Of a stretch of DNA of 64,000 nucleotides, positions 3,088 through 57,859 are shown in pieces. The position numbers were made by a program, and so were the translations under genes. The stretch is from Candidatus Tumulicola sp. (GTDB lineage Bacteria; Vulcanimicrobiota; Vulcanimicrobiia; Vulcanimicrobiales; Vulcanimicrobiaceae). Within the stretch, counting starts at the first letter, position 1. Each line of letters opens with the position of its first letter. The stretch lies in contig DASXDT010000006.1 in assembly GCA_036490475.1 (NCBI GenBank), positions 1,240,001-1,304,000 on the forward strand. Direction: 5' to 3'. The notes under the pieces were generated by a model, which saw nothing but the letters and a program-made list of their open reading frames with translations, made no database searches and was not told where the DNA came from.

Positions 3088-4353
3088 CTAGAAGTTCGAC
3101 AGGGGCAGAGCGCGTAAGTACTCCGTGTCGGTGACGAACAGCGTCTTGCCGAGAATGACCGGCGGCGACGTGGTGTACGGCCGGTCGTACGGAACCGCGG
3201 CGAGTACGGCGCCGGTGCGGGCATCGAGCCGGTAGAACACCCCTCCCGTGTCGCCGACGTAAACGCTGCCGCGGTCGATCACCGGGCTCATCTTGACGGA
3301 AGCGTTGGTGTGCATGTGCCACTTCACGCGTCCGGTCGCGGCGTCGAACGCGAGCAACTCGGACGTCGCCGGAATCGATTGATAGAGAACGCCGCCGTCG
3401 TACGTGCCGGCGATCGCGCGTTCGTTGGAACCGACTGCGGTGTAGTATCCGGTTGCGCTGGTATAGCGCCAGCGCATTTTGCCGGTCGTTTCATCGAGCG
3501 CGACCACGCTGTTGTTGCCGGTGGCTTCGAGCGGACCTTTCGGGCCGTCTTTGGCCGACTCGACGAACACCATGTTTTGCGCGACCGTCGGCGTGCAGTC
3601 GCCGTTACCGTATGGAGCGCTCCAGCGAATCGCGCCGGTGTGCAAATCCAGCGCGAGCGTATGGCTGCGGCCGATCTCGTAGACCTCCGGTTTGCCCTGC
3701 GTCGCGGCGAGAAACACGACCCCGCGATCGATCATCGCCGACGCCATCGTCGGGACGCCCGGTACCTGCGTCTTCCAAAGCAATCGACCGGTTAGCGCGT
3801 CGACCGCCTGCGCGAAATTATCACCGGTCGCGAATACCAACACGCCATTGTCGTAGGCGGCCGAGGGCATCGCTTCACCGACGGTCGGATACTGCCATAC
3901 CGCCGCACCGCTATCGGCTTTGAAGGCGTACCAGTGATTGCCCGACGGCCGTCCCCATGCCGCCGATCCCTTACGTTCCCACAGTTGGCGGTTCGTCCCG
4001 GAGCCGACGAAGACCATGCCTCCGGCGACGATCGGACTCGACATCAGCACGTCGTCCGCGCGGGTGCGCCATTGCACCGCGCCGTTGGCCGGGTCGATCG
4101 CCAGCAGATCGCCCGCAAACGTTGCCGCATAGAGCCAGCGTCCGTCGTAGGCGAGTCCACCGTTCATCTTGGCTCCCGTGTCGATCGCGTAGGTCGTTTC
4201 GGGAAGTTGCGAAGGAAGCACCGCGTTATGCGTCAAGCCGTTCTGATACATCGTCCAGGTGACCGGCGAAGCGCTCGAGGCCGCATGATTGCAAGCCGAA
4301 AGCGCGAGCGCGACAAAAAGTGCGCCCGCGACGACGGATGATGACCGAAACAA
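3088..4353 (-). CDS. PQQ-like beta-propeller lipoprotein
   Basis: A 421-residue exported propeller protein. The signal ends in a lipobox (LSAC, Cys21), so it should be lipid-anchored outside the cytoplasm. Seven copies of a repeat like (L/A)xAxDxxTGxxxW run along the chain, the hallmark of PQQ-enzyme/BamB-type blades. It lacks obvious PQQ or catalytic residues, so it is more likely a binding or scaffold protein than a quinoprotein dehydrogenase. The start is TTG; no better upstream start exists because the preceding gene ends only 5 bp away. Possible BamB-like assembly factor, but no bam gene is nearby. Confidence 0.8.
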   Translation of the reverse strand: MFRSSSVVAGALFVALALSACNHAASSASPVTWTMYQNGLTHNAVLPSQLPETTYAIDTGAKMNGGLAYDGRWLYAATFAGDLLAIDPANGAVQWRTRADDVLMSSPIVAGGMVFVGSGTNRQLWERKGSAAWGRPSGNHWYAFKADSGAAVWQYPTVGEAMPSAAYDNGVLVFATGDNFAQAVDALTGRLLWKTQVPGVPTMASAMIDRGVVFLAATQGKPEVYEIGRSHTLALDLHTGAIRWSAPYGNGDCTPTVAQNMVFVESAKDGPKGPLEATGNNSVVALDETTGKMRWRYTSATGYYTAVGSNERAIAGTYDGGVLYQSIPATSELLAFDAATGRVKWHMHTNASVKMSPVIDRGSVYVGDTGGVFYRLDARTGAVLAAVPYDRPYTTSPPVILGKTLFVTDTEYLRALPLSNF

Positions 4354-4358
4354 GGGAA

Positions 4359-4724
4359 CTAGTCAGGCATGACGCAGGCGAGTTGGTTGTGCCACTTCGC
4401 CTGCACGTTCTTTGCGGAAACGGTGTGATCGTGACCGTTGGCCGTGACGACGGCCGACGCACCTGAGGAGGAACGCGTGAACGTAATCGTATCGATGCCG
4501 GACGACGACGTGTCGACCTGCTCGGTGACGCCCGCCAAGCTGGACGAGCGTGCGTGTCCGAGCGTGAACGTAACGCTTCCCAGCGCGCCGCTGCACGCCG
4601 CCGCAGCTTGTTTGAACGTGAGCGTTGAGGGCGAAAGCGTCACCGCTGATGCGGCCGGCGCTGCGGTTTGCATTGCCGCTGCCAGCAACGCGAACAGCGC
4701 TAAACGGATGACCGGAGATTTCAT
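4359..4724 (-). CDS. small secreted protein, unknown function
   Basis: A 121-residue protein with a clear signal peptide (about 26 residues, ending APAAS-A). The mature part is Ser/Thr-rich and beta-prone with just two cysteines (C44 and C117) that could form a disulfide. A GAGGAG ribosome-binding site lies about 10 bp before the ATG. It is the first gene of the set that continues into the propeller lipoprotein 5 bp downstream. The divergent gene starts only 34 bp away, so the two promoters must overlap or lie inside coding sequence. I recognise no family. Confidence 0.65.
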   Translation of the reverse strand: MKSPVIRLALFALLAAAMQTAAPAASAVTLSPSTLTFKQAAAACSGALGSVTFTLGHARSSSLAGVTEQVDTSSSGIDTITFTRSSSGASAVVTANGHDHTVSAKNVQAKWHNQLACVMPD

Positions 4725-4758
4725 GCGGTCGATAACTCCTCGATGCTAGGTTGAACGA

Positions 4759-5904
4759 TTGAAAAACTTACGCGACGGCCGCCTAGTCCCTTTAATCGTG
4801 CTGCTGGCGAGCGTGCTCTCTGCGTGCGGTGGACGCGCCTCCGTGCCGGCCTCGACGTCCGCATCGATCGAAACGCCCGGAAGCTCGCGCTGCCACGTCC
4901 GCTTTTACGCGCCGAAGGGCGTGCCGCATCCGCATCTGACCGTCGCGCACGGTCCGGGATTGGTGATCGGGGGCGGCGGAACCGACGTCGACGCGGAGTT
5001 CGTCTGGATGCACGACACCGTGGTTGGATCGCATACGCGGCGGGGCGGCGACGTCGTTGTCTTGCGGGCCGACGGCAGCCAGGACTACGACGACTACATC
5101 TATCGACAGGCGCCATTCTGGTCGGTACGAACGATCAAGTTGCCGCCGTGCGCGACCGCGGGTGACATCGCGCACGCTGCCGCGATTGTTTCGCGATCGA
5201 CGATCGTGTTTTTTGCCGGCGGTAATCAAGCCGAGTACGTCATCTGGAAGAACACGCCGCTGCAGGCGGCCGTACAAAATGTGTACGATCGCGGCGGCGC
5301 AGTCGGAGGCACGAGCGCCGGCGCGTCAATTCTTGGCCGCGACGTCTTCGATGCGGTCGCCGAAGGTGACGAACAAACCACGACCGACAACGCGGTGCAC
5401 GATCCGTACGAGCACACGATTAGCTTCACATACGACTTTCTGCGGTTCGCGCCGCTGCGCGACACGGTTACAGACCCGCATTTCGTCGCTCGTAATCGAT
5501 TTGGGCGCGAGGCGGTATTCGTCGCGCGACAGATCGCCGACGGGCGCGTGGCAAAGCAGCCGCCGGTCGCCTATGGCCTGGGCGTCGACGAAGCGGGCTC
5601 GGTTGTGATCGACAGACGCGGCGTCGGCACGTTGCTCGTCCAGTTTCACTCCGGATCCGCCTTCGCCATCGAAGAGCACGCCGCCAGAAGGATCGTAGCG
5701 GGAAAGCCGTTCGTCTCGTCGGTGCTCCACGTCACGCGCCTGGGCCCGGGCGATCGCTACGATTTCATACGGCACTGCGGCGACGAGCCGTCGTACGATG
5801 TGACCGTCGACGGCGATCGCCCGCATCCGATGATGTACGCGCCGGCCAATCCGTACCGCATTCCGGCGGGCAGCCGGCCGAGGCCGTGCCCGCATCGCGG
5901 CTAG
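4759..5904 (+). CDS. cyanophycinase-like peptidase S51 lipoprotein
   Basis: A 381-residue member of peptidase family S51, whose best-known members hydrolyse cyanophycin (multi-L-arginyl-poly-aspartate) to beta-Asp-Arg. An N-terminal lipobox (LSAC, Cys23) predicts an exported lipoprotein, unlike the cytoplasmic cyanophycinases of producers. The nucleophile motif GGTSAGA is at 183-189 (Ser186), preceded by FAGGNQ near 152-156, both typical of the family. No cyanophycin synthetase is in the window, so the enzyme would act on external polymer or another beta-aspartyl peptide. Start is TTG at 4759; an in-frame GTG further on would cut into the signal peptide. Confidence 0.8.
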   Translation: MKNLRDGRLVPLIVLLASVLSACGGRASVPASTSASIETPGSSRCHVRFYAPKGVPHPHLTVAHGPGLVIGGGGTDVDAEFVWMHDTVVGSHTRRGGDVVVLRADGSQDYDDYIYRQAPFWSVRTIKLPPCATAGDIAHAAAIVSRSTIVFFAGGNQAEYVIWKNTPLQAAVQNVYDRGGAVGGTSAGASILGRDVFDAVAEGDEQTTTDNAVHDPYEHTISFTYDFLRFAPLRDTVTDPHFVARNRFGREAVFVARQIADGRVAKQPPVAYGLGVDEAGSVVIDRRGVGTLLVQFHSGSAFAIEEHAARRIVAGKPFVSSVLHVTRLGPGDRYDFIRHCGDEPSYDVTVDGDRPHPMMYAPANPYRIPAGSRPRPCPHRG

Positions 5905-30363: not shown

Positions 30364-30558
30364 ATGAGTTCGGCCGACGATATCCCCGCAGAACTGGCAT
30401 CGGCGCTGCAAGGTAATCTCGCCGCACGCGACGCGTTTTTTGCATTGCCGCCATCGCATCGTCTCGAATACGTGCGCTGGATCGACGATGCCAAGCAGCC
30501 GCAAACTCGCGTGTCGCGTGCAAACAAAGCGCTTGAAAAGTTGGTACCCAAGAAATGA
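30364..30558 (+). CDS. YdeI/OmpD-associated-like small protein
   Basis: A 64-residue protein from the ATG at 30364. Its core (AELASALQGNLAARDAFFALPPSHRLEYVRWIDDAKQPQTRVSR split over the middle) is the C-terminal module of YdeI/OmpD-associated proteins, with the LPPSHRxEYxxWI signature. It lacks the N-terminal DUF1801-like part, so it is a stand-alone domain. Upstream frame residues are ignored as they have no ribosome-binding site. Overlaps the sedolisin start by 4 bp (ATGA). Confidence 0.7.
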   Translation: MSSADDIPAELASALQGNLAARDAFFALPPSHRLEYVRWIDDAKQPQTRVSRANKALEKLVPKK

Positions 30559-32147
30559 ATTTGGACCGTCATGCAATTCCCGGTAGCGAACGCGAACCGG
30601 TACCCGGCGCGAAAGCCGTCGCACCCGCCGATCCGAATGCGTCGATCGAGGCGACGGTCGTGCTCAAGCGCCGTTCGCCCGACGAGTTCGGCGCGTGCGT
30701 TCGTCGCGCGGTCGATGCGTGGCCCGGCGCCCGCTTAAGCCGGGACGAATTCGCGAACCGCTTCTCGGCCGATCCCGCCGATTGTTCGGCCGTGCGTGCG
30801 TTTGCGAAAGCCAACGGTTTGCAAGTGGCCGGCGAAGATACGGCGGCGCATACGATTCGACTAAGCGGTACCGTCGCTGCGTTCTCGGCCGCATTCGGCG
30901 TCGAACTGCACACCTACGATTACCATGGCGGTTCGTACCGAGGCCGCGTCGGCTCCGTGCACGTGCCCGAGTCGTTAGCGTCGGTCGTGGTGGCCGTGCT
31001 GGGGCTCGACGACCGGCCGCAGGCGTCGCCGCATTTCCGCATACGCAAAGCGCTGGGGAAGGTCGCGCCGCGCGCGCAAGGTGCATCATTCGACCCCGTG
31101 CAGATCGCTAAACTGTACGGCTTCCCCGCGGGAGCGAAGGCGACCGGCCAATGCATCGCGGTTATCGAGCTGGGCGGCGGATACAAAGACGCTGATCTAC
31201 AGGCGTATTTCAGCGGTCTCGGCGTGCCCGTTCCCGAGGTCGTTGCGGTCTCGGTCGATTCCGCGCAGAACGCGCCGACCGGCAGCGTCGACGGTCCGGA
31301 CGGCGAGGTGATGCTCGATATCGAAGTCGCCGGCGCGGTCGCAACCGGCGCCAAGATCGCCGTCTATTTTGCGCCCAATACCGACGCCGGATTTCTCGAC
31401 GCGATCACGGCCGCGATTCACGACACCACCAACAAGCCGTCGGTCATATCGATCAGTTGGGGTTCGGCCGAATCGACCTGGACCAAACAGGCGACGGCGG
31501 CGTTCGACGCAGCTTTTCAAGCCGCGGCAACGCTGGGTATCACGGTGACGGCGGCGTCGGGCGACAGCGGTTCGAGCGACGGCCAGAACAGCGGTAATCA
31601 CGCCGATTTTCCGTGTTCGAGTTCGTACGCGCTGGCGTGCGGCGGCACCAAAGTTGCCGTGTCCGGCCAAACGCTTTCGGGCGAGACGGTGTGGAACGAA
31701 ACGGCCTCCGATGAGGGCGCGACCGGTGGCGGCGTCAGTGCCGTCTTCGCGTTGCCGGCCTGGCAAAAAGGCCTGTCCGCGACGTCGACATCGGGAGTGG
31801 CGACGCCCTTGGCGCATCGCGGCGTTCCCGACGTTGCGGGCAACGCCGATCCCGAGACCGGCTACGCGGTTCGTATCGACGGAACCGATACGGTCCTGGG
31901 TGGCACCAGCGCGGTCGCGCCGCTGTGGGCAGCGCTGATCGCGCTGGCCAACGCGGCCGCCGGGACGAACGCCGGCTTCATCAACGCCAAACTGTATGCC
32001 GATGCGTCGGTCTGCCGCGACATCACGCAAGGCAACAACGGCGCGTTCGAAGCGGTCAAAGGATGGGATGCGTGTACCGGCTTGGGAAGTCCGAACGGTG
32101 CCGCCGTTGTAGGAGCGCTCGCAACGAATAAAAGTACCGTTTTATAG
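30555..32147 (+). CDS. sedolisin (peptidase S53, kumamolisin-like)
   Basis: A 530-residue acid-acting serine-carboxyl peptidase precursor. Residues about 30-165 are the pro-kumamolisin activation domain; the catalytic domain follows. The Ser-Glu-Asp set is complete: Glu251 and Asp255 (GEVMLDIE), Asp337 (SGDSGS) and Ser452 (GGTSAVAP). Spacing (4, 82, 115) almost equals kumamolisin's. A C-terminal Ca-site pattern (CRDITQGNNG ... GWDACTGLG) is present. There is no signal peptide, as in several kumamolisins, so export is uncertain. It shares an ATGA overlap with the small YdeI-like gene. Confidence 0.9.
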   Translation: MNLDRHAIPGSEREPVPGAKAVAPADPNASIEATVVLKRRSPDEFGACVRRAVDAWPGARLSRDEFANRFSADPADCSAVRAFAKANGLQVAGEDTAAHTIRLSGTVAAFSAAFGVELHTYDYHGGSYRGRVGSVHVPESLASVVVAVLGLDDRPQASPHFRIRKALGKVAPRAQGASFDPVQIAKLYGFPAGAKATGQCIAVIELGGGYKDADLQAYFSGLGVPVPEVVAVSVDSAQNAPTGSVDGPDGEVMLDIEVAGAVATGAKIAVYFAPNTDAGFLDAITAAIHDTTNKPSVISISWGSAESTWTKQATAAFDAAFQAAATLGITVTAASGDSGSSDGQNSGNHADFPCSSSYALACGGTKVAVSGQTLSGETVWNETASDEGATGGGVSAVFALPAWQKGLSATSTSGVATPLAHRGVPDVAGNADPETGYAVRIDGTDTVLGGTSAVAPLWAALIALANAAAGTNAGFINAKLYADASVCRDITQGNNGAFEAVKGWDACTGLGSPNGAAVVGALATNKSTVL

Positions 32148-37656: not shown

Positions 37657-39129
37657 CTAGGCGGTTTTTTGATGCATCGTTGCGATCAACGCGGAACGCG
37701 AACGTACCCCGAAGATCGAACGCACCCTGGCCGCGTGATTCTTCACCGTTTCCGGCGAGATCCCGAGCGACTCGGCAATGACCTTATCCGACAGTCCTTC
37801 ACACAGTAGATCGAAGACTCTGCGCTGGGCGCGGGTCATCGAACTCAAGCGCGTGTCGTCGAGTGCGGCGGCGCGTTGTTTGATATCGCGCGCGACCGAA
37901 CTCTCGGAGAACCCGGATACCACTTCGCCGGCACGCTGCAGCCACGTGCGATCGTCGGTGATCGAGTGCAGCAGCATCGCGGCGGCGGCGGCCCGCCATC
38001 CGTACTGGATGGATTCGAATGTGAAGTAGGCTTCGCGTAGCAACTCGATCGCATCGAAGCGGCGCCCGGCCGCGGCGTACACGCCGCCGCGCACGTAGTT
38101 TTCCATCGCCTTCAGGCGGCGGTCGTGCGCCAGGGCCAGCCGCTTGGCCAGCGGTGCGGTGATCTCGTCGTACAGCGTCAGCAATCGCTGCGCGCCTTCG
38201 AGATCGTCATCGACCGTCAGCTCGATCAGGTTGAGGAGCGCGATGCGCTCTTCAGACGTACATTGCCAGTCCATCGCGAGCGCATTCTTGACCGCATGGC
38301 GCAACATCGCTTCCGCGCTGCACTGCTGTCCGGCCATGCGTGCGAGGTAGGCTTGGTCGGCATAACACGCCGTGATCCAACGCTGCGACGGGGCGAGGTC
38401 GCGCGATGCATACGCATACTCGAGCGCCCGTTCGTGCGATCCGCGCAGGGCATTGGCCCATGCCAGACCGCGAAGCGTCAGGAAGCGTTCGGTGTTGAGG
38501 TCGTCCGTCCACGGCAACGTCTCGGCCATCCGCTCGGCAAACGCATAGGCCTCGGGCGCCGCGATTTCACGGATCAGATGCGTCAGAGCCTGAGTGGCGT
38601 GCGCCAAAAGTACGACGTCGCGGGCTTCGGGGTGCTCCAACACGTGCTTGCAGGCGCGCTCGAGCAGGACCACCTGGTCGGAATAGCGCTCTTCGGCGCC
38701 GGCCAACCACGACGATGCGTAGAGCCAGGAACCGTAGAGTGTGGGTTCGCTTTCGACCTCGACGGAAGATAACGCCGTTTCCATAGACTCGATGGAACCT
38801 TGCGACCAGCCGATCAGAAAGCGCGCGTACGCGATCTCAAATTGGACCGTAAGGGGCAATTCTCGCGGCCGCACCTGGGCAAGTACTCTGCGGGCCATCT
38901 CGGTCGAGCCGGCGAGAGAATGGCATACCGACTCGAGGGCGCGCAGAAGCGCGTCCTCGTCACTCGTGGTCGGTTGAAGCTCGACGACTTCGTCGAGGGC
39001 CTGCTCGTACTTGCCAAGCCGCATCAGCGCGCGCACACGCAAAATGCGATCTGTCATAACAGACGAACGTTCCGTCGCCTCTAGACAGTCGGTGAGGCGA
39101 CCTTCGCTATACAGTTCGCGCGGTTCCAA
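37657..39129 (-). CDS. LuxR-family regulator with TPR-like N-terminal domain
   Basis: A 490-residue cytoplasmic regulator. Residues 1-425 are helical repeat pairs of TPR type with no ATPase (STAND) motif, a layout suited to binding a small ligand or peptide. Residues 428-490 are a LuxR/GerE DNA-binding domain, with the HTH in GLSDKVIAESLGISPETVKNHAARVRSIFGV. TTG start with an AGGGAG site 9 bp before. Two inverted repeats lie between it and the small repeat-peptide gene upstream on the same strand, so it may be autoregulated. Function is inferred; its target may be the polysaccharide locus. Confidence 0.85.
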   Translation of the reverse strand: MEPRELYSEGRLTDCLEATERSSVMTDRILRVRALMRLGKYEQALDEVVELQPTTSDEDALLRALESVCHSLAGSTEMARRVLAQVRPRELPLTVQFEIAYARFLIGWSQGSIESMETALSSVEVESEPTLYGSWLYASSWLAGAEERYSDQVVLLERACKHVLEHPEARDVVLLAHATQALTHLIREIAAPEAYAFAERMAETLPWTDDLNTERFLTLRGLAWANALRGSHERALEYAYASRDLAPSQRWITACYADQAYLARMAGQQCSAEAMLRHAVKNALAMDWQCTSEERIALLNLIELTVDDDLEGAQRLLTLYDEITAPLAKRLALAHDRRLKAMENYVRGGVYAAAGRRFDAIELLREAYFTFESIQYGWRAAAAAMLLHSITDDRTWLQRAGEVVSGFSESSVARDIKQRAAALDDTRLSSMTRAQRRVFDLLCEGLSDKVIAESLGISPETVKNHAARVRSIFGVRSRSALIATMHQKTA

Positions 39130-39152
39130 ACGAAATTACTCCCTGCTTGATA

Positions 39153-39167
39153 ATGGCGAAACGCCAT
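39153..39167. promoter_or_regulatory. short inverted repeat before the LuxR-type gene
   Basis: ATGGCG-AAA-CGCCAT, 6-bp perfect arms with a 3-bp spacer, 24 bp upstream of the TTG start. It could be a regulator-binding site or a small RNA hairpin near the ribosome-binding site. Confidence 0.4.
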
Positions 39168-39220
39168 GATCGATGCGACGAGGTTCGTTCAGTGGGCCTT
39201 GCACTTCATACTAAACGATA

Positions 39221-39275
39221 CCTCTCGACGAAACCTCAGGAAAATCAAAGTTCCGTTAAGAGAAACGTCGAGAGG
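39221..39275. promoter_or_regulatory. 10-bp inverted repeat with 35-bp spacing
   Basis: CCTCTCGACG (39221-39230) and its exact complement CGTCGAGAGG (39266-39275), between the repeat-peptide stop and the LuxR-type gene. Likely a spaced pair of binding sites for a dimeric regulator, or a stem ending the peptide transcript. The 10-bp identity is longer than expected by chance in 156 bp. Confidence 0.45.
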
Positions 39276-39285
39276 CCGGGAATCG

Positions 39286-39480
39286 TTAGCGTTTAGCGAT
39301 CGGGATCGGTCCCCCCGGCGTATCGTTCGGCGTTACGCGCGACTGCGACGCAGCGGTGAGCGGAATAGGCCCTCCGGGCGTGTCGGCCGGCTGCATAATT
39401 GCTGCCTTAATGGGGATGGGTCCACCTGGCGTATCGGTGGGGTGAACGATGGCGAAGAGGAATGCAAGCAGAAAATCCAT
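39286..39480 (-). CDS. tandem-repeat peptide precursor, candidate signal peptide
   Basis: A 64-residue protein. Residues 2-12 are hydrophobic (DFLLAFLFAIV) and could direct export; a basic n-region is lacking. Three 11-residue copies follow, P-x-D-T-P-G-G-P-I-P-(I/L), at 14-24, 31-41 and 51-61, spaced 17 and 20 residues apart, separated by variable linkers (KAAIMQ, TAASQSRVT) and a basic AKR end. Nine of the eleven positions are invariant. No Cys, no enzyme motif. A distant AAGGA lies before the ATG. It sits 156 bp upstream of the TPR-LuxR gene on the same strand. It looks like a precursor cleaved to several copies of one peptide; the role is a hypothesis. Confidence 0.6.
   Translation of the reverse strand: MDFLLAFLFAIVHPTDTPGGPIPIKAAIMQPADTPGGPIPLTAASQSRVTPNDTPGGPIPIAKR
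39298..39441. repeat. three diverged coding repeats for one 11-residue motif
   Basis: Copies at 39409-39441, 39358-39390 and 39298-39330 (all minus strand). Of the nine invariant residues only Thr uses the same codon in all copies; the rest differ at synonymous sites, so this is not a recent DNA duplication. Confidence 0.75.
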
Positions 39481-39548
39481 GATGGTTCTTGTGGGTCCTT
39501 TTGTCGGAAGTACGAGCGAGTGTAGTAAAAAGGTACTATAAATGGACT

Positions 39549-39642: not shown

Positions 39643-41781
39643 CTATCGTAAAGCGAGCGGGCGAGCGGCGGCGGTGAGGTAATAGCCGTTCTCGCCGGGC
39701 GATTCGCGCCTCACTCGGTTAACGATCAAACCGAGCAAGTTGTCGATGCCGATGCTCTTCACGTAGGAGATGACCTCGCGTGTCGAGCGGCTGCCGGTGG
39801 TATCGGCCGAGACGACCAGTACCGTGCCGTCGACTTTGTCGGCCAGCAGGGCCGCATCCACCACCGGCAGCACGGCCGGCAGATCGACGATCACCACGCG
39901 GTATCCGCGCTCCTCGGCTTCCTTGAGCACGGCCTTGAAGTCCGATGTTTGTAGCAGATGGGCCGGCGAACTCACCGGGATTCCGCTCGTGATCACGTCG
40001 AGATTGGGGGTCGAAGTGGCCTTGACGCTCTCGGCAAACTTGGCTTTGCCGCCGAGCAGGTCGGCAAGACCTAGCTCGTTCTCGACGTGCAGCAGCTTGT
40101 GGAGCGACGGACGGCGCAGGTCGCCGTCGATCAACAGAACCGGTCCCTCGAACTCGGCCAGGGTACGGCCCATGTTGACCGCCACGGTGCTCTTGCCGTC
40201 GCCGGCACCCGGGCTGGTGAACGCGATCGAACGGGCGCCGCGGCCGTTGGAGCACTGCAGCGTCCGGACGATTTGCAGCAGCGATTCGAAGGCCATCGCC
40301 TCCAGCGTCGGCCGCGACTGCTGATCGGACCACGAGAGGTCGGGGATGTAACCGAGGATGTGGCGGCCGAAGCTGGCGCGCAGCTCCTCCTCGCCACGCG
40401 GGCGGCGGTCGAGCCACTCGAGCAGTGCGACCAGCGAACCGCCCAGGATGAGGCTAACGATAAAGCCGATCGCCAGGGTCATCACGCGGCTGGGCTTCGC
40501 GACGGCATCGTCGGGAGAGGCTTGTTGCGTGATCGTGACGTCGCCGATCGCAGTGCTCTTGGCGACCAGCGCGTCGCTCATGCGCTGTTGCAGCGCGTCG
40601 TACACGGCTTCGGCTTGTTTGGCATCGCGCTGTAACGCCGAGAAGCGCAACGTGTCGTCGGGCAGCGACTTGGTTTGTGCCAGCAGTTGTTTGCGCTGGA
40701 TGCCGAGCTCCGTCAGACCGGCATCGTCAGCAGCGAGCTGCGTGCGGTAGTTGGCCTCAGCCTGCGAAAGTTGCTGGTAGATCGGATTGGGGACGGTGCT
40801 GGTTCCGGCTACGATTGTCGCCGGCTGCTGCGCAATCTCTTGCAGCAAGCGCGCGTGCTGGGCTTCGAGGCTCACGACCAGCGGATAGCGTTCGGTGTAG
40901 GTTCGGCGTGCCGCGCCGAGTTGCGTCTCGACGTCGGCCAACTGCGTGCGCAGCTGCTGCACGACGGGATTGGGCGCCTGCGATTCCGAGCCGGCCGTCG
41001 TGGCCTGCATGCTCGCCATTTGCGTGTCGTCGGCCTTGAGCTGCGCGCTTTGTTGGCGGCGATCCAGCATCAGCTGGCCGATACGTGCTTCGACGGAGTT
41101 CAGCGAGGCAAGCGTCGCCGTCGCCTGCGCGCCGATATCGGCGGCATGGTGACTCTTTTCGAACTGAACCATCGCCGCTTCGGCGGTTTTCTGACGGCGG
41201 GCGGCGTCGGGCATTTCCTTCGTAAGGAACTGCAGGGCGGAGTCGGCTTGCGAGGTGATCAGGCTGCGTTCGCGATCGACGAACGCGTTGGCGAAACCGT
41301 TGGCGATCTGCGCCGACATTTGCGGCGACGACCACGTGGCCGAGATGCGGATCATCGACGTGTTGTTGATCGGTTCGGCCTTGATGTGGTTCAACAGCTC
41401 TCGCGGGGTCATGTTCAGGTTGAGCGAATCGATGACCGAACGTGCGACCGGCGATTCCGTGAGCAGCTCGGCGTACGTTTCGCCCGATTGCACGCCCGAG
41501 ACCACCATCAATGCGTTGAGAATCGGAAGATTCGTTGCCGAGTCCGCGGTCTGCGTGGGCTGCTTGGCCATGCCGACGATGATGCCGGCATCCGTGGTGT
41601 ACGTTTTCTTCGTTGTGATCGTGAAGAGCAGCAACAACGCCAGCATGGAGCCCATCGCGATTGCGAAGACCTTCCAGCGACGCCGCGCCACCGCGGCAAC
41701 CTCGTTCATCAACGCCGATGCGTTGTTGGAGTGCGACGCCTTGAGCGACGTCGTCAGGGCGGTACGGTAAATGTCAGCCAT
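39643..41781 (-). CDS. Wzz chain-length regulator fused to BY-kinase
   Basis: A 712-residue inner-membrane polysaccharide co-polymerase and bacterial tyrosine kinase. N-terminal Wzz domain with helices near 36-57 and about 440-465 flanking a periplasmic coiled-coil; then a C-terminal kinase with Walker A (GAGDGKST, 525-531), A' (LLIDGDLRRP, D552) and Walker B (VVIVDLP, D633). The C-terminus has only two Tyr (700, 701), fewer than the usual Tyr cluster. It should set chain length and control export of the polymer. The Wza-like exporter gene precedes it by 2 bp. Confidence 0.9.
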   Translation of the reverse strand: MADIYRTALTTSLKASHSNNASALMNEVAAVARRRWKVFAIAMGSMLALLLLFTITTKKTYTTDAGIIVGMAKQPTQTADSATNLPILNALMVVSGVQSGETYAELLTESPVARSVIDSLNLNMTPRELLNHIKAEPINNTSMIRISATWSSPQMSAQIANGFANAFVDRERSLITSQADSALQFLTKEMPDAARRQKTAEAAMVQFEKSHHAADIGAQATATLASLNSVEARIGQLMLDRRQQSAQLKADDTQMASMQATTAGSESQAPNPVVQQLRTQLADVETQLGAARRTYTERYPLVVSLEAQHARLLQEIAQQPATIVAGTSTVPNPIYQQLSQAEANYRTQLAADDAGLTELGIQRKQLLAQTKSLPDDTLRFSALQRDAKQAEAVYDALQQRMSDALVAKSTAIGDVTITQQASPDDAVAKPSRVMTLAIGFIVSLILGGSLVALLEWLDRRPRGEEELRASFGRHILGYIPDLSWSDQQSRPTLEAMAFESLLQIVRTLQCSNGRGARSIAFTSPGAGDGKSTVAVNMGRTLAEFEGPVLLIDGDLRRPSLHKLLHVENELGLADLLGGKAKFAESVKATSTPNLDVITSGIPVSSPAHLLQTSDFKAVLKEAEERGYRVVIVDLPAVLPVVDAALLADKVDGTVLVVSADTTGSRSTREVISYVKSIGIDNLLGLIVNRVRRESPGENGYYLTAAARPLALR

Positions 41782-41783
41782 GG

Positions 41784-42671
41784 TTAGAATCCTACGATCA
41801 TGCGAAGAATGTTGAAGACGTTGCCGGGATTGGTTCCGGGCTTTCTCGCTTGCGGAACGTACACGACGTCGCCGTTTTGCAAGCGCGGATCCGACGCCAG
41901 CTGCCCGTGCTGCAAGGCGTCGTACAGGTTGATTTCCTGCGACGTCGTGCCGGTCGGTGTGGTCCGCGTGACATAGATGTGATTGAGGTCGGCCTGCGCG
42001 TTCACGCTGTTACCGGCTTTGGCGATCGCGACGCTGAGCCGGTCGCCTTCGTGCATCTGGACGTCCCCGGGATGGTCGACGGCGCCGACGACTTCGATTG
42101 CGAAGGTCGAGCGCGATTGTACGTACACCACCGCGTTATCCGACAACGCGAGATCCTCGCTGTCGTCGCCTTGGCGCAGGAGCTTTTCGAGCGAGATCGT
42201 TTGCACGGCGTCGTTGGGGTTCTGCACGCGTGCGATCGGAAGCGGTCCGACCAGCGACGTGTCCAGTCCGCCGGCAGCCGCCAGAGCGTCGGACAGCTTA
42301 CCACTGGAACGCAGCAGGTATTTGCCGGGCGTCTTGACGTCGCCGAGCATCAGCACGCTGATCTGTCCTTGGGTCGTTACTTCGACGGTGACCATCGGCT
42401 TACGGATGTACGAGGCGAGTTTATGCGACAGCATCTGCTCCGACGCCGAGGTGGTGAGCCCACCGAAATGGACGCGTCCAACCAGCGGCAGATCGGCCGA
42501 ACCGTCGGGAAGAACGGTGACGGTTTGCGTTAACGTAGATTCTCCGTAGACCGCTACGGCGAGTTGATCGCCGGGATGGATCACGTACGTGCTCGGACTC
42601 GCGGCGAACGCGGCCGCTTGTGCGGCGGCGAAGGCGATGACGAACGCGGCAGTTCCTATCAGACGACGCAT
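41784..42671 (-). CDS. Wza-like polysaccharide export protein with SLBB domains
   Basis: A 295-residue exported protein: signal peptide to about residue 24, a polysaccharide-biosynthesis/export domain (YVIHPGDQLAVAVYGE ... VLPDGSADLPLVG) and two SLBB-like modules (ISVLMLGDVKTPGKYLL; FAIEVVGAVDHPGDVQM). The chosen ATG has AAGGAG 6 bp before it; longer frames overlap the permease gene. It forms the outer-membrane side of the export channel, next to the Wzz/BY-kinase. Lacks a lipobox, unlike E. coli Wza. Confidence 0.88.
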   Translation of the reverse strand: MRRLIGTAAFVIAFAAAQAAAFAASPSTYVIHPGDQLAVAVYGESTLTQTVTVLPDGSADLPLVGRVHFGGLTTSASEQMLSHKLASYIRKPMVTVEVTTQGQISVLMLGDVKTPGKYLLRSSGKLSDALAAAGGLDTSLVGPLPIARVQNPNDAVQTISLEKLLRQGDDSEDLALSDNAVVYVQSRSTFAIEVVGAVDHPGDVQMHEGDRLSVAIAKAGNSVNAQADLNHIYVTRTTPTGTTSQEINLYDALQHGQLASDPRLQNGDVVYVPQARKPGTNPGNVFNILRMIVGF

Positions 42672-57166: not shown

Positions 57167-57859
57167 TTATGCGAGCCCGCTACGCATGGCGTAAATGACT
57201 ACTTGGGTGCGTGCGGTTACATTTAATTTTGCGAAGATGTGCGAGATGTGATTCTTAACGGTTTTGTCGGAGAGGCCCAGGCGATCGCTGATTTCGCGAT
57301 TCGAAAGACCGGCCGCGATCAAGCGGACGATATCGGACTCGCGCGGCGACAACTCGTTGGGGTCGCGACGGCCGATGCCGGCGTGCTTGCGCAGAATCAT
57401 TCCAACTAGACGCGGATCGACGTACAGGTTTCCACCCGCCATCGCTTTGACCGCGCCCAACAGTTCGTCGGGCGTGATGTCTTTGAGGATGTAACCGTCG
57501 GCGCCGGCCGACAACACGCGTTGCATCGCTTCAGAGCTAAGATGCTCGGACAGGACGCCAATGCGAGCGCGGGGTGAGGCTAAGCGGCACATGCCGATGG
57601 CATTGCTCAACGCGTCGAAGCTGATGCTGCCGTCGAGCAGGATGAGCGTCGGATTCGCTTTTGAAAGCTGCATGCCGTTGGCTTCGATCGCATCGCCGAC
57701 CACGTTCACGAACGGATCGCGTTGCAGCACGTTGCCGAGGGCTTTCGCCATCAGGGCGTGCGGCTGAATGATGAACACGCGGGCGGGTGCCGTCAGGGTG
57801 GCGGGCGTCGCGGGAAGCGACGTCACCGGCGTACTTGTTACGCCATGTAGGGTCTGCAC
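57167..57859 (-). CDS. NarL/LuxR-type response regulator with atypical receiver
   Basis: A 230-residue regulator from the GTG at 57859 with AAGGAG upstream. Residues about 25-145 form a receiver-like domain: likely phospho-Asp76 (LILLDGSIS) and Lys in GYILKDIT are kept, but the acidic pair that binds Mg is replaced (IIQPHAL), so phosphorylation may be weak or absent. Residues 168-230 are a LuxR HTH (LSPRESDIVRLIAAGLSNREISDRLGLSDKTVKNHISHI). Probably controls the exopolysaccharide genes that follow on the same strand. No histidine kinase is nearby. Confidence 0.85.
   Translation of the reverse strand: MQTLHGVTSTPVTSLPATPATLTAPARVFIIQPHALMAKALGNVLQRDPFVNVVGDAIEANGMQLSKANPTLILLDGSISFDALSNAIGMCRLASPRARIGVLSEHLSSEAMQRVLSAGADGYILKDITPDELLGAVKAMAGGNLYVDPRLVGMILRKHAGIGRRDPNELSPRESDIVRLIAAGLSNREISDRLGLSDKTVKNHISHIFAKLNVTARTQVVIYAMRSGLA

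Follow-up and report, generated by a model that had tools for sequence, protein, structure and literature searches.

Two neighbouring genes of the window, the whole 64-kb stretch of DNA analysed here, probably encode a peptide pheromone and its cognate receptor, and belong to a large family of such pairs in Eremiobacterota. This reading is supported by the computed pairing of the genes, by coding constraint on the peptide, by the co-inheritance of receptor and motif, by the TPR plus HTH architecture of the receptor and by the enrichment of a palindrome in the peptide promoters. The pair comprises the following features:

37657-39129, minus strand: TPR-LuxR regulator of 490 aa with a TTG start, the proposed cytoplasmic peptide receptor (552 bits to profile A1)
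37681-37842, minus strand: C-terminal LuxR/GerE HTH of the regulator, residues 430-483 (Pfam PF00196, E 6.9e-11)
39139-39144, minus strand: AGGGAG preceding the TTG start of the receptor, from the sequence
39286-39480, minus strand: propeptide gene, 64 aa, MDFLLAFLFAIVHPTDTPGGPIPIKAAIMQPADTPGGPIPLTAASQSRVTPNDTPGGPIPIAKR, with homologues beside orthologous receptors and coding constraint across the family
39445-39480, minus strand: N-terminal leader, hydrophobic and free of basic residues, MDFLLAFLFAIV, from the sequence and of the type common to the DTPGGPI clade
39412-39435, minus strand: motif copy 1, DTPGGPIP, at residue 16 of the 64-aa peptide
39361-39384, minus strand: motif copy 2, DTPGGPIP, at residue 33
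39301-39324, minus strand: motif copy 3, DTPGGPIP, at residue 53

The peptide gene lies upstream of the receptor gene, both on the minus strand, with a gap of 156 bp (39130-39285). Pfam identified the LuxR-type HTH of the receptor, and neither an ATPase family nor an autoinducer-binding domain was found by Pfam at E <= 1. RRNPP receptor families gave no Pfam or NCBIfam match to the protein at E <= 1. The TPR matches were weak by sequence (Pfam), and the best 60 matches of a profile search of PDB sequences consisted of LuxR-type HTHs and generic TPR proteins alone. Structures were predicted with AlphaFold2 for the window protein and for that of the closest named relative, a Candidatus Eremiobacteria MAG (L164, Eremiobacterota), whose receptor is 51% identical and which places the window in Eremiobacterota (Vulcanimicrobiota); the input was a two-sequence alignment. 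The window receptor was modelled as a helical superhelix with a C-terminal HTH (mean pLDDT 79.5, pTM 0.68). When this model was compared with the PDB by Foldseek, the first match was Rap with the pheromone CSF (4gyo, E 3.6e-5), and Rap-phi105 with ERPVGT and MalT domain III (1hz4) were found further down, amid many eukaryotic TPR proteins. In the model, the N-terminal part of the receptor is a TPR superhelix of the Rap-like general kind, the TM scores of 0.35-0.5 corresponding to a generic TPR fold match and being no proof of a peptide pocket. An earlier note on this DNA had described a 64-residue peptide with a hydrophobic start and three DTPGGPIP copies, 156 bp from a 490-residue regulator on the same strand with a TPR-like N-terminal region, a LuxR HTH and no ATPase motif. 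All of this was confirmed. At 57197-57541 (minus strand) of the window, a second, shorter LuxR-type regulator (frame of 240 aa) displayed a weak match to the HTH part of the receptor.

The three repeats of the peptide were picked for their identical peptide sequence, and their informative part is the high silent divergence: third codon positions differed in 17 of 24 pairwise comparisons, first and second positions in none. Because the third positions have diverged and the other two are unchanged, the repeats are old and kept by amino-acid selection. The strict DTPGGPIP repeat pattern, searched as DNA in 99 genomes of the same taxonomic family, had no match outside the own genome, and a whole-peptide search in relatives returned matches in the own genome alone. 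Such searches were unproductive owing to the short length and the variability of the peptide; what succeeded was to locate receptor homologues first and to read the DNA before them. With the DTPGGPI DNA pattern, eight matches were obtained in the 99 genomes and none in the reversed control. Seven of them are receptor loci, and the eighth falls within a longer, unrelated frame that looks TetR-like by eye. The peptide recurs before the orthologous receptor in the sister species G001 and in other genera; in G001, a small ORF (...VAFLFAIVLLFANMHPADTPGGPLDTPGGPIAHASGPVGSGAHDSR) is placed directly upstream of a receptor 55% identical to that of the window.

For the family survey, starting homologues were picked by receptor similarity alone and their upstream DNA was then read. 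Profile A1, built from 22 receptors, detected the TPR-LuxR family at E <= 1e-20 in 68 of the 99 genomes, with further matches in another family of the same order and in one family of the class. About 140 distinct receptor loci were read for adjacent peptides. Among high-scoring receptors (above 400 bits), a peptide adjoined 63 of 71, or 41 of 49 outside the profile training set, and a recognised peptide was absent at 8 of 71. Receptors with 340-400 bits had a peptide in 3 of 12 cases, and those scoring lower in 6 of 54. Among control genes of the same loci (n = 156), one was preceded by a hydrophobic ORF in which a 5-mer was repeated, and five had the motif. The first scan, restricted to upstream ORFs within 500 bp, missed some peptides, which were recovered farther up or downstream; after curation, 69 of 72 peptides were upstream on the strand of the receptor and 3 were downstream of it. 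Receptors of the family reach about 570 aa. Membership in the proposed Eremiobacterota TPR-LuxR/repeat-peptide family was defined by a receptor above 400 bits to A1 and an adjoining hydrophobic-leader peptide with the motif class of its clade; the window pair belongs to it, with 552 bits and a place in the DTPGGPI clade (100/100).

The lower-scoring receptors L119-L162, many from genus g9, form a related TPR-LuxR subfamily with up to 15 copies per genome at E <= 1e-20. They are mostly without a recognisable adjacent peptide and may read other ligands or eavesdrop. On two contigs of G001 (L031 and L032), the near-identical pairs DTLGETTGG and DTLGEATGG occur in one assembly, as either a recent whole-pair duplication or strain variants in one bin.

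The family peptides are small ORFs (median 62 aa, range 38-140, n = 72) with a hydrophobic- or lipoprotein-type leader and a short, often repeated motif, mostly of the D-x-x-GG type. The motifs read upstream of receptor homologues include DTSGGPM (three copies), EGSHPPY (three), ADGTLPPY (two), ADSIGGPLT, STHGGAVD (seven) and YGGSAG, and further multi-copy precursors carry DSVGGGPP (seven), VVGGGPTPAG (nine, one of them varied), DTGTTTGK (three) and DSVGGGPVP (five). Several precursors end exactly in the motif. The dN/dS values between related peptides were 0.06-0.37, with changes clustering at third codon positions, strongly suggesting that the peptide ORFs are real genes. Hydrophobic WGA motifs, distinct from D-x-x-GG, were seen at L044 (G015), where IASWGAIIVG occurs twice beside the receptor, and at L112 (G085), with ILEGWGAGQLG. 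In genus g47, six lipoprotein-type peptides (L091, L098, L101, L104, L106 and L107) have one GGG-P motif each and an equally conserved C-terminal tail, C-x-E-x-G/T-CPD-x-TPTP, possibly a second unit or else a disulfide element.

Leaders were hydrophobic in 72 of 72 peptides and lipobox-like in 31 (about 40%). The remaining ones consist of a short hydrophobic stretch in which basic residues are mostly absent, and those of the DTPGGPI clade are uncharged throughout. The window leader, an uncharged hydrophobic stretch without a clear signal-peptidase site, differs from a textbook Sec signal. A lipoprotein-like precursor would be held at a membrane, which, like the character of the window leader, counts against the pheromone reading. 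The pair could instead operate with no re-import loop. The peptide would then be a small protein of the membrane or the periplasm, in many cases a lipoprotein; its precursor, while still unexported, would bind the TPR receptor in the cytoplasm, and the pair would report the secretion or envelope state of the cell itself, not its neighbours. The 31 lipoprotein-like leaders, the character of the window leader and the production of precursors next to their receptor fit this explanation. It is nevertheless considered unlikely, as it leaves the repeated motif copies, the exactly C-terminal motifs and the several motif classes per genome unexplained, all of them usual for diffusible pheromones.

A candidate regulatory site was located before the peptide gene:

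39523-39538, minus strand: candidate operator, palindrome TAGTACCTTTTTACTA, of the form TAGnnn-N4-nnnCTA, with its centre 50 bp ahead of the start codon of the peptide gene

When TAGTNNNTTTTNACTA was searched with at most one mismatch, this site was the sole match in the 64-kb window (expected 0.01), and it is conserved in the promoter alignment of the DTPGGPI clade. The peptide promoter alignments displayed clade-specific conserved inverted repeats with one shared form, TAGnnn-N4-nnnCTA. A TAG/CTA-ended inverted repeat was present in 37 of 72 peptide promoters (4-bp spacer in 30 of the 37, median centre -55) against 5.7 +/- 2.2, maximum 12, in 200 shuffled sets; the form had first been spotted in these promoters and was then tested on them. 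At receptors without an assigned peptide, the repeat was found in 7 of 73 cases. When the best inverted repeat of each promoter was sought without a set form, most loci were not clearly above shuffles; the signal resides in the fixed TAG...CTA form. Genome-wide, matches to the window palindrome were at background level (6, with 7 for the reversed control), which gives no ground for claiming a wide regulon; the site suggests autoregulation of the peptide gene. Its presence also bears on another view of the short ORF, which precedes a regulator in the same orientation and could be an attenuator-type regulatory leader or a frame without function. This is very improbable in view of the palindrome-bearing promoter of its own, the amino-acid selection, the hydrophobic leaders and the three peptide genes situated downstream of the receptor instead.

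In a maximum-likelihood tree of 63 receptors, these grouped by motif class across genera, and paralogous receptors of one genome carried different motif classes. The DTPGGPI clade comprised the window, G001, four genomes of another genus and L164, with a support of 100/100. The clades DSGGxMTG, DS[TV]GGM and D[ST][FL]GE each contained one receptor encoded by the genome of the window. Sequence identity in the TPR part correlated with motif similarity (Mantel r 0.47, 0/5000 permutations); for pairs from different genera r was 0.41, and motif shuffles within one genus reached the observed value in 0 of 5000 cases. At the level of sequence comparison, motif class tracks receptor clade, not genome. 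Since each paralogous receptor has its own peptide class, one cell could run several private channels. The earlier note had read the two genes as a peptide/receptor pair and tied this to homologues adjoining the regulator and to a conserved frame; the seven receptor loci among eight pattern matches, the low dN/dS, the modelled TPR superhelix resembling that of known peptide receptors, the 63/71 pairing in the subfamily and the tracking of receptor clade by motif all speak in its favour. In the D[ST][FL]GE clade, no peptide was found for the own-genome paralogue L029 (G000:C5, receptor 4103-5815), possibly an orphan or eavesdropping receptor.

Beyond the pair, two genes for polysaccharide export follow upstream:

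39643-41781, minus strand: Wzc-type polysaccharide chain-length tyrosine kinase, upstream neighbour and possible target, outside the pair (Pfam/NCBIfam)
41784-42644, minus strand: Wza-type polysaccharide export protein (Poly_export, SLBB; Pfam, tblastn synteny)

Within the DTPGGPI clade, a wza-type gene is linked to the pair in five of six species. In four relatives it directly follows the receptor, whereas the window has wza and wzc just upstream of the peptide. In three species of the clade, a PMT-type glycosyltransferase is found directly upstream of the peptide. G052 and the near-identical L164 are without wza or glycosyltransferase linkage. The scanned neighbours of other clades had no shared partner and were diverse (Fic, HNH, enoyl-CoA hydratase, PilZ, HD-GYP, CapD-like, secretin). 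The use of neighbours as a clue to one common function was dropped, since other clades adjoin different genes. From the gene order, control of exopolysaccharide may fairly be inferred for the DTPGGPI clade only; the link to the exopolysaccharide locus proposed in the earlier note gains support for this clade and not for the others. The adjoining exopolysaccharide genes and the glycine/proline-rich repeats would also suit secreted effectors (antimicrobial, adhesive or matrix-binding), with the TPR-LuxR protein as a local regulator sensing something else, and regulators often neighbour their targets. We consider this quite unlikely: motif class co-varies with the TPR part of the receptor over genera, as a mere target gene need not, and no common maturation or transport gene was present among the scanned neighbours. 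About 7 kb from the peptide gene, an ORF at 30555-32147 (plus strand) resembles, by eye, a secreted sedolisin (S53, pro-kumamolisin type) protease, the kind of enzyme that peptide maturation would need.

According to the pheromone reading, the hydrophobic leader would move the 64-aa propeptide out of the cell, and proteases would cut from it copies of a short mature unit based on DTPGGPI(P). This peptide would re-enter the cytoplasm, probably via an oligopeptide-permease-type importer, and sit in the concave groove of the TPR superhelix. Once bound, it would alter the binding of the LuxR-type HTH to the TAG...CTA palindrome before the peptide gene (autoregulation), and the receptor probably also controls the neighbouring exopolysaccharide-export genes. 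Export, cleavage, re-import, binding, the sign of regulation and the targets are what we infer. The genome of the window encodes ten SBP_bac_5 peptide-importer binding proteins, which makes re-import possible, though such proteins are widespread (11 of 14 control genomes). The phylum Eremiobacterota, whose first isolate is described in PMC9758169, is diderm, and a peptide on its way back would have two membranes to pass, which counts against re-import. Further points against the reading are the generic TPR fold matches, the 8 of 71 high-scoring receptors without a recognised peptide and, for the operator, its having been spotted in the tested promoters and the background level of its genome-wide matches.

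Peptide pheromones read by cytoplasmic TPR receptors have been described from Bacillota and their mobile elements. We lean towards a phylum-wide, independently evolved pheromone family outside Bacillota, with cytoplasmic TPR-LuxR receptors, privately coded, often tandem-copy and mostly D-x-x-GG-type peptides, a shared TAG-N10-CTA operator and parallel channels per cell, one of them governing exopolysaccharide export. If this is true, a second, apparently unrelated family exists in a mostly uncultured diderm phylum, and this mode of signalling has evolved more than once. The family would also provide about 70 pairs of receptor and peptide whose specificity codes can be read and whose operator is predicted, directly testable with synthetic peptides, and a candidate tie of exopolysaccharide to cell-cell signalling in soil bacteria. 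No description of peptide signalling in Eremiobacterota was found in the literature searched, which did not extend to subscription journals and preprints.

Receptors of the LuxR type for acyl-homoserine lactones have an autoinducer-binding domain; in the window receptor none was found, and the N-terminal part is modelled as a TPR-like superhelix. MalT/LAL regulators likewise combine a superhelix of the TPR type with a LuxR HTH behind it at the C-terminus, with MalT domain III among the Foldseek matches (1hz4). In contrast to them, the receptors described here have no NTPase domain (AAA/NB-ARC-type), measure about 490-570 aa instead of about 900, and are adjoined by a peptide gene. Enterococcal lipoprotein-derived sex pheromones are peptide signals tied to lipoprotein-type leaders, the pheromone being cut from the leader itself. 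A connection with lipoprotein-type leaders exists in both cases, but here the repeated motif is in the mature part.

The closest parallel in organization is found in RRNPP systems, in which a small propeptide gene lies beside that of a TPR superhelical receptor, several paralogous pairs occur per genome and some precursors are multi-copy (PMC10075063, PMC11343458, PMC9765709). RRNPPA systems were found in Firmicutes, almost all in Bacilli (PMC9765709), and RRNPP_detector was designed for gram-positive bacteria (PMC10075063). Some Phr precursors contain tandem copies, two of ERPVGT in Phr-phi105 and up to 8 in others (PMC11343458). Like these, the peptides described here have identical, spacer-separated motif copies in one propeptide, often one of them C-terminal; they differ in showing no detectable sequence kinship and in their uncharged or lipoprotein-like family leaders. 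The likeness to RRNPP/RRNPPA systems (Rap-Phr, NprR-NprX, PlcR-PapR, AimR-AimP, Rgg-SHP) extends to the adjacent small propeptide, the TPR superhelix (modelled here), the paralogous pairs and the multi-copy precursors. With 64 and 490 aa, the window peptide and receptor are within the respective ranges of 10-100 and about 250-500 aa, and the genes are adjacent (156 bp). For Sec-secreted propeptides, the counterpart here is a hydrophobic leader in 72/72 cases, lipobox-like in 31 and without a basic n-region in the window's clade, and for peptide-binding TPRs it is a TPR superhelix by model and fold search. On the other hand, the HTH is of the LuxR/GerE type and C-terminal, not an N-terminal HTH or three-helix bundle, and no sequence homology was detected (Pfam and NCBIfam at E <= 1, best 60 of the PDB profile search). 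The phylum is another one and diderm, and motifs and operator differ. RRNPP membership fails because of the HTH position and the lack of sequence homology, and the best reading is that the Eremiobacterota pairs work like RRNPP systems without belonging to them.
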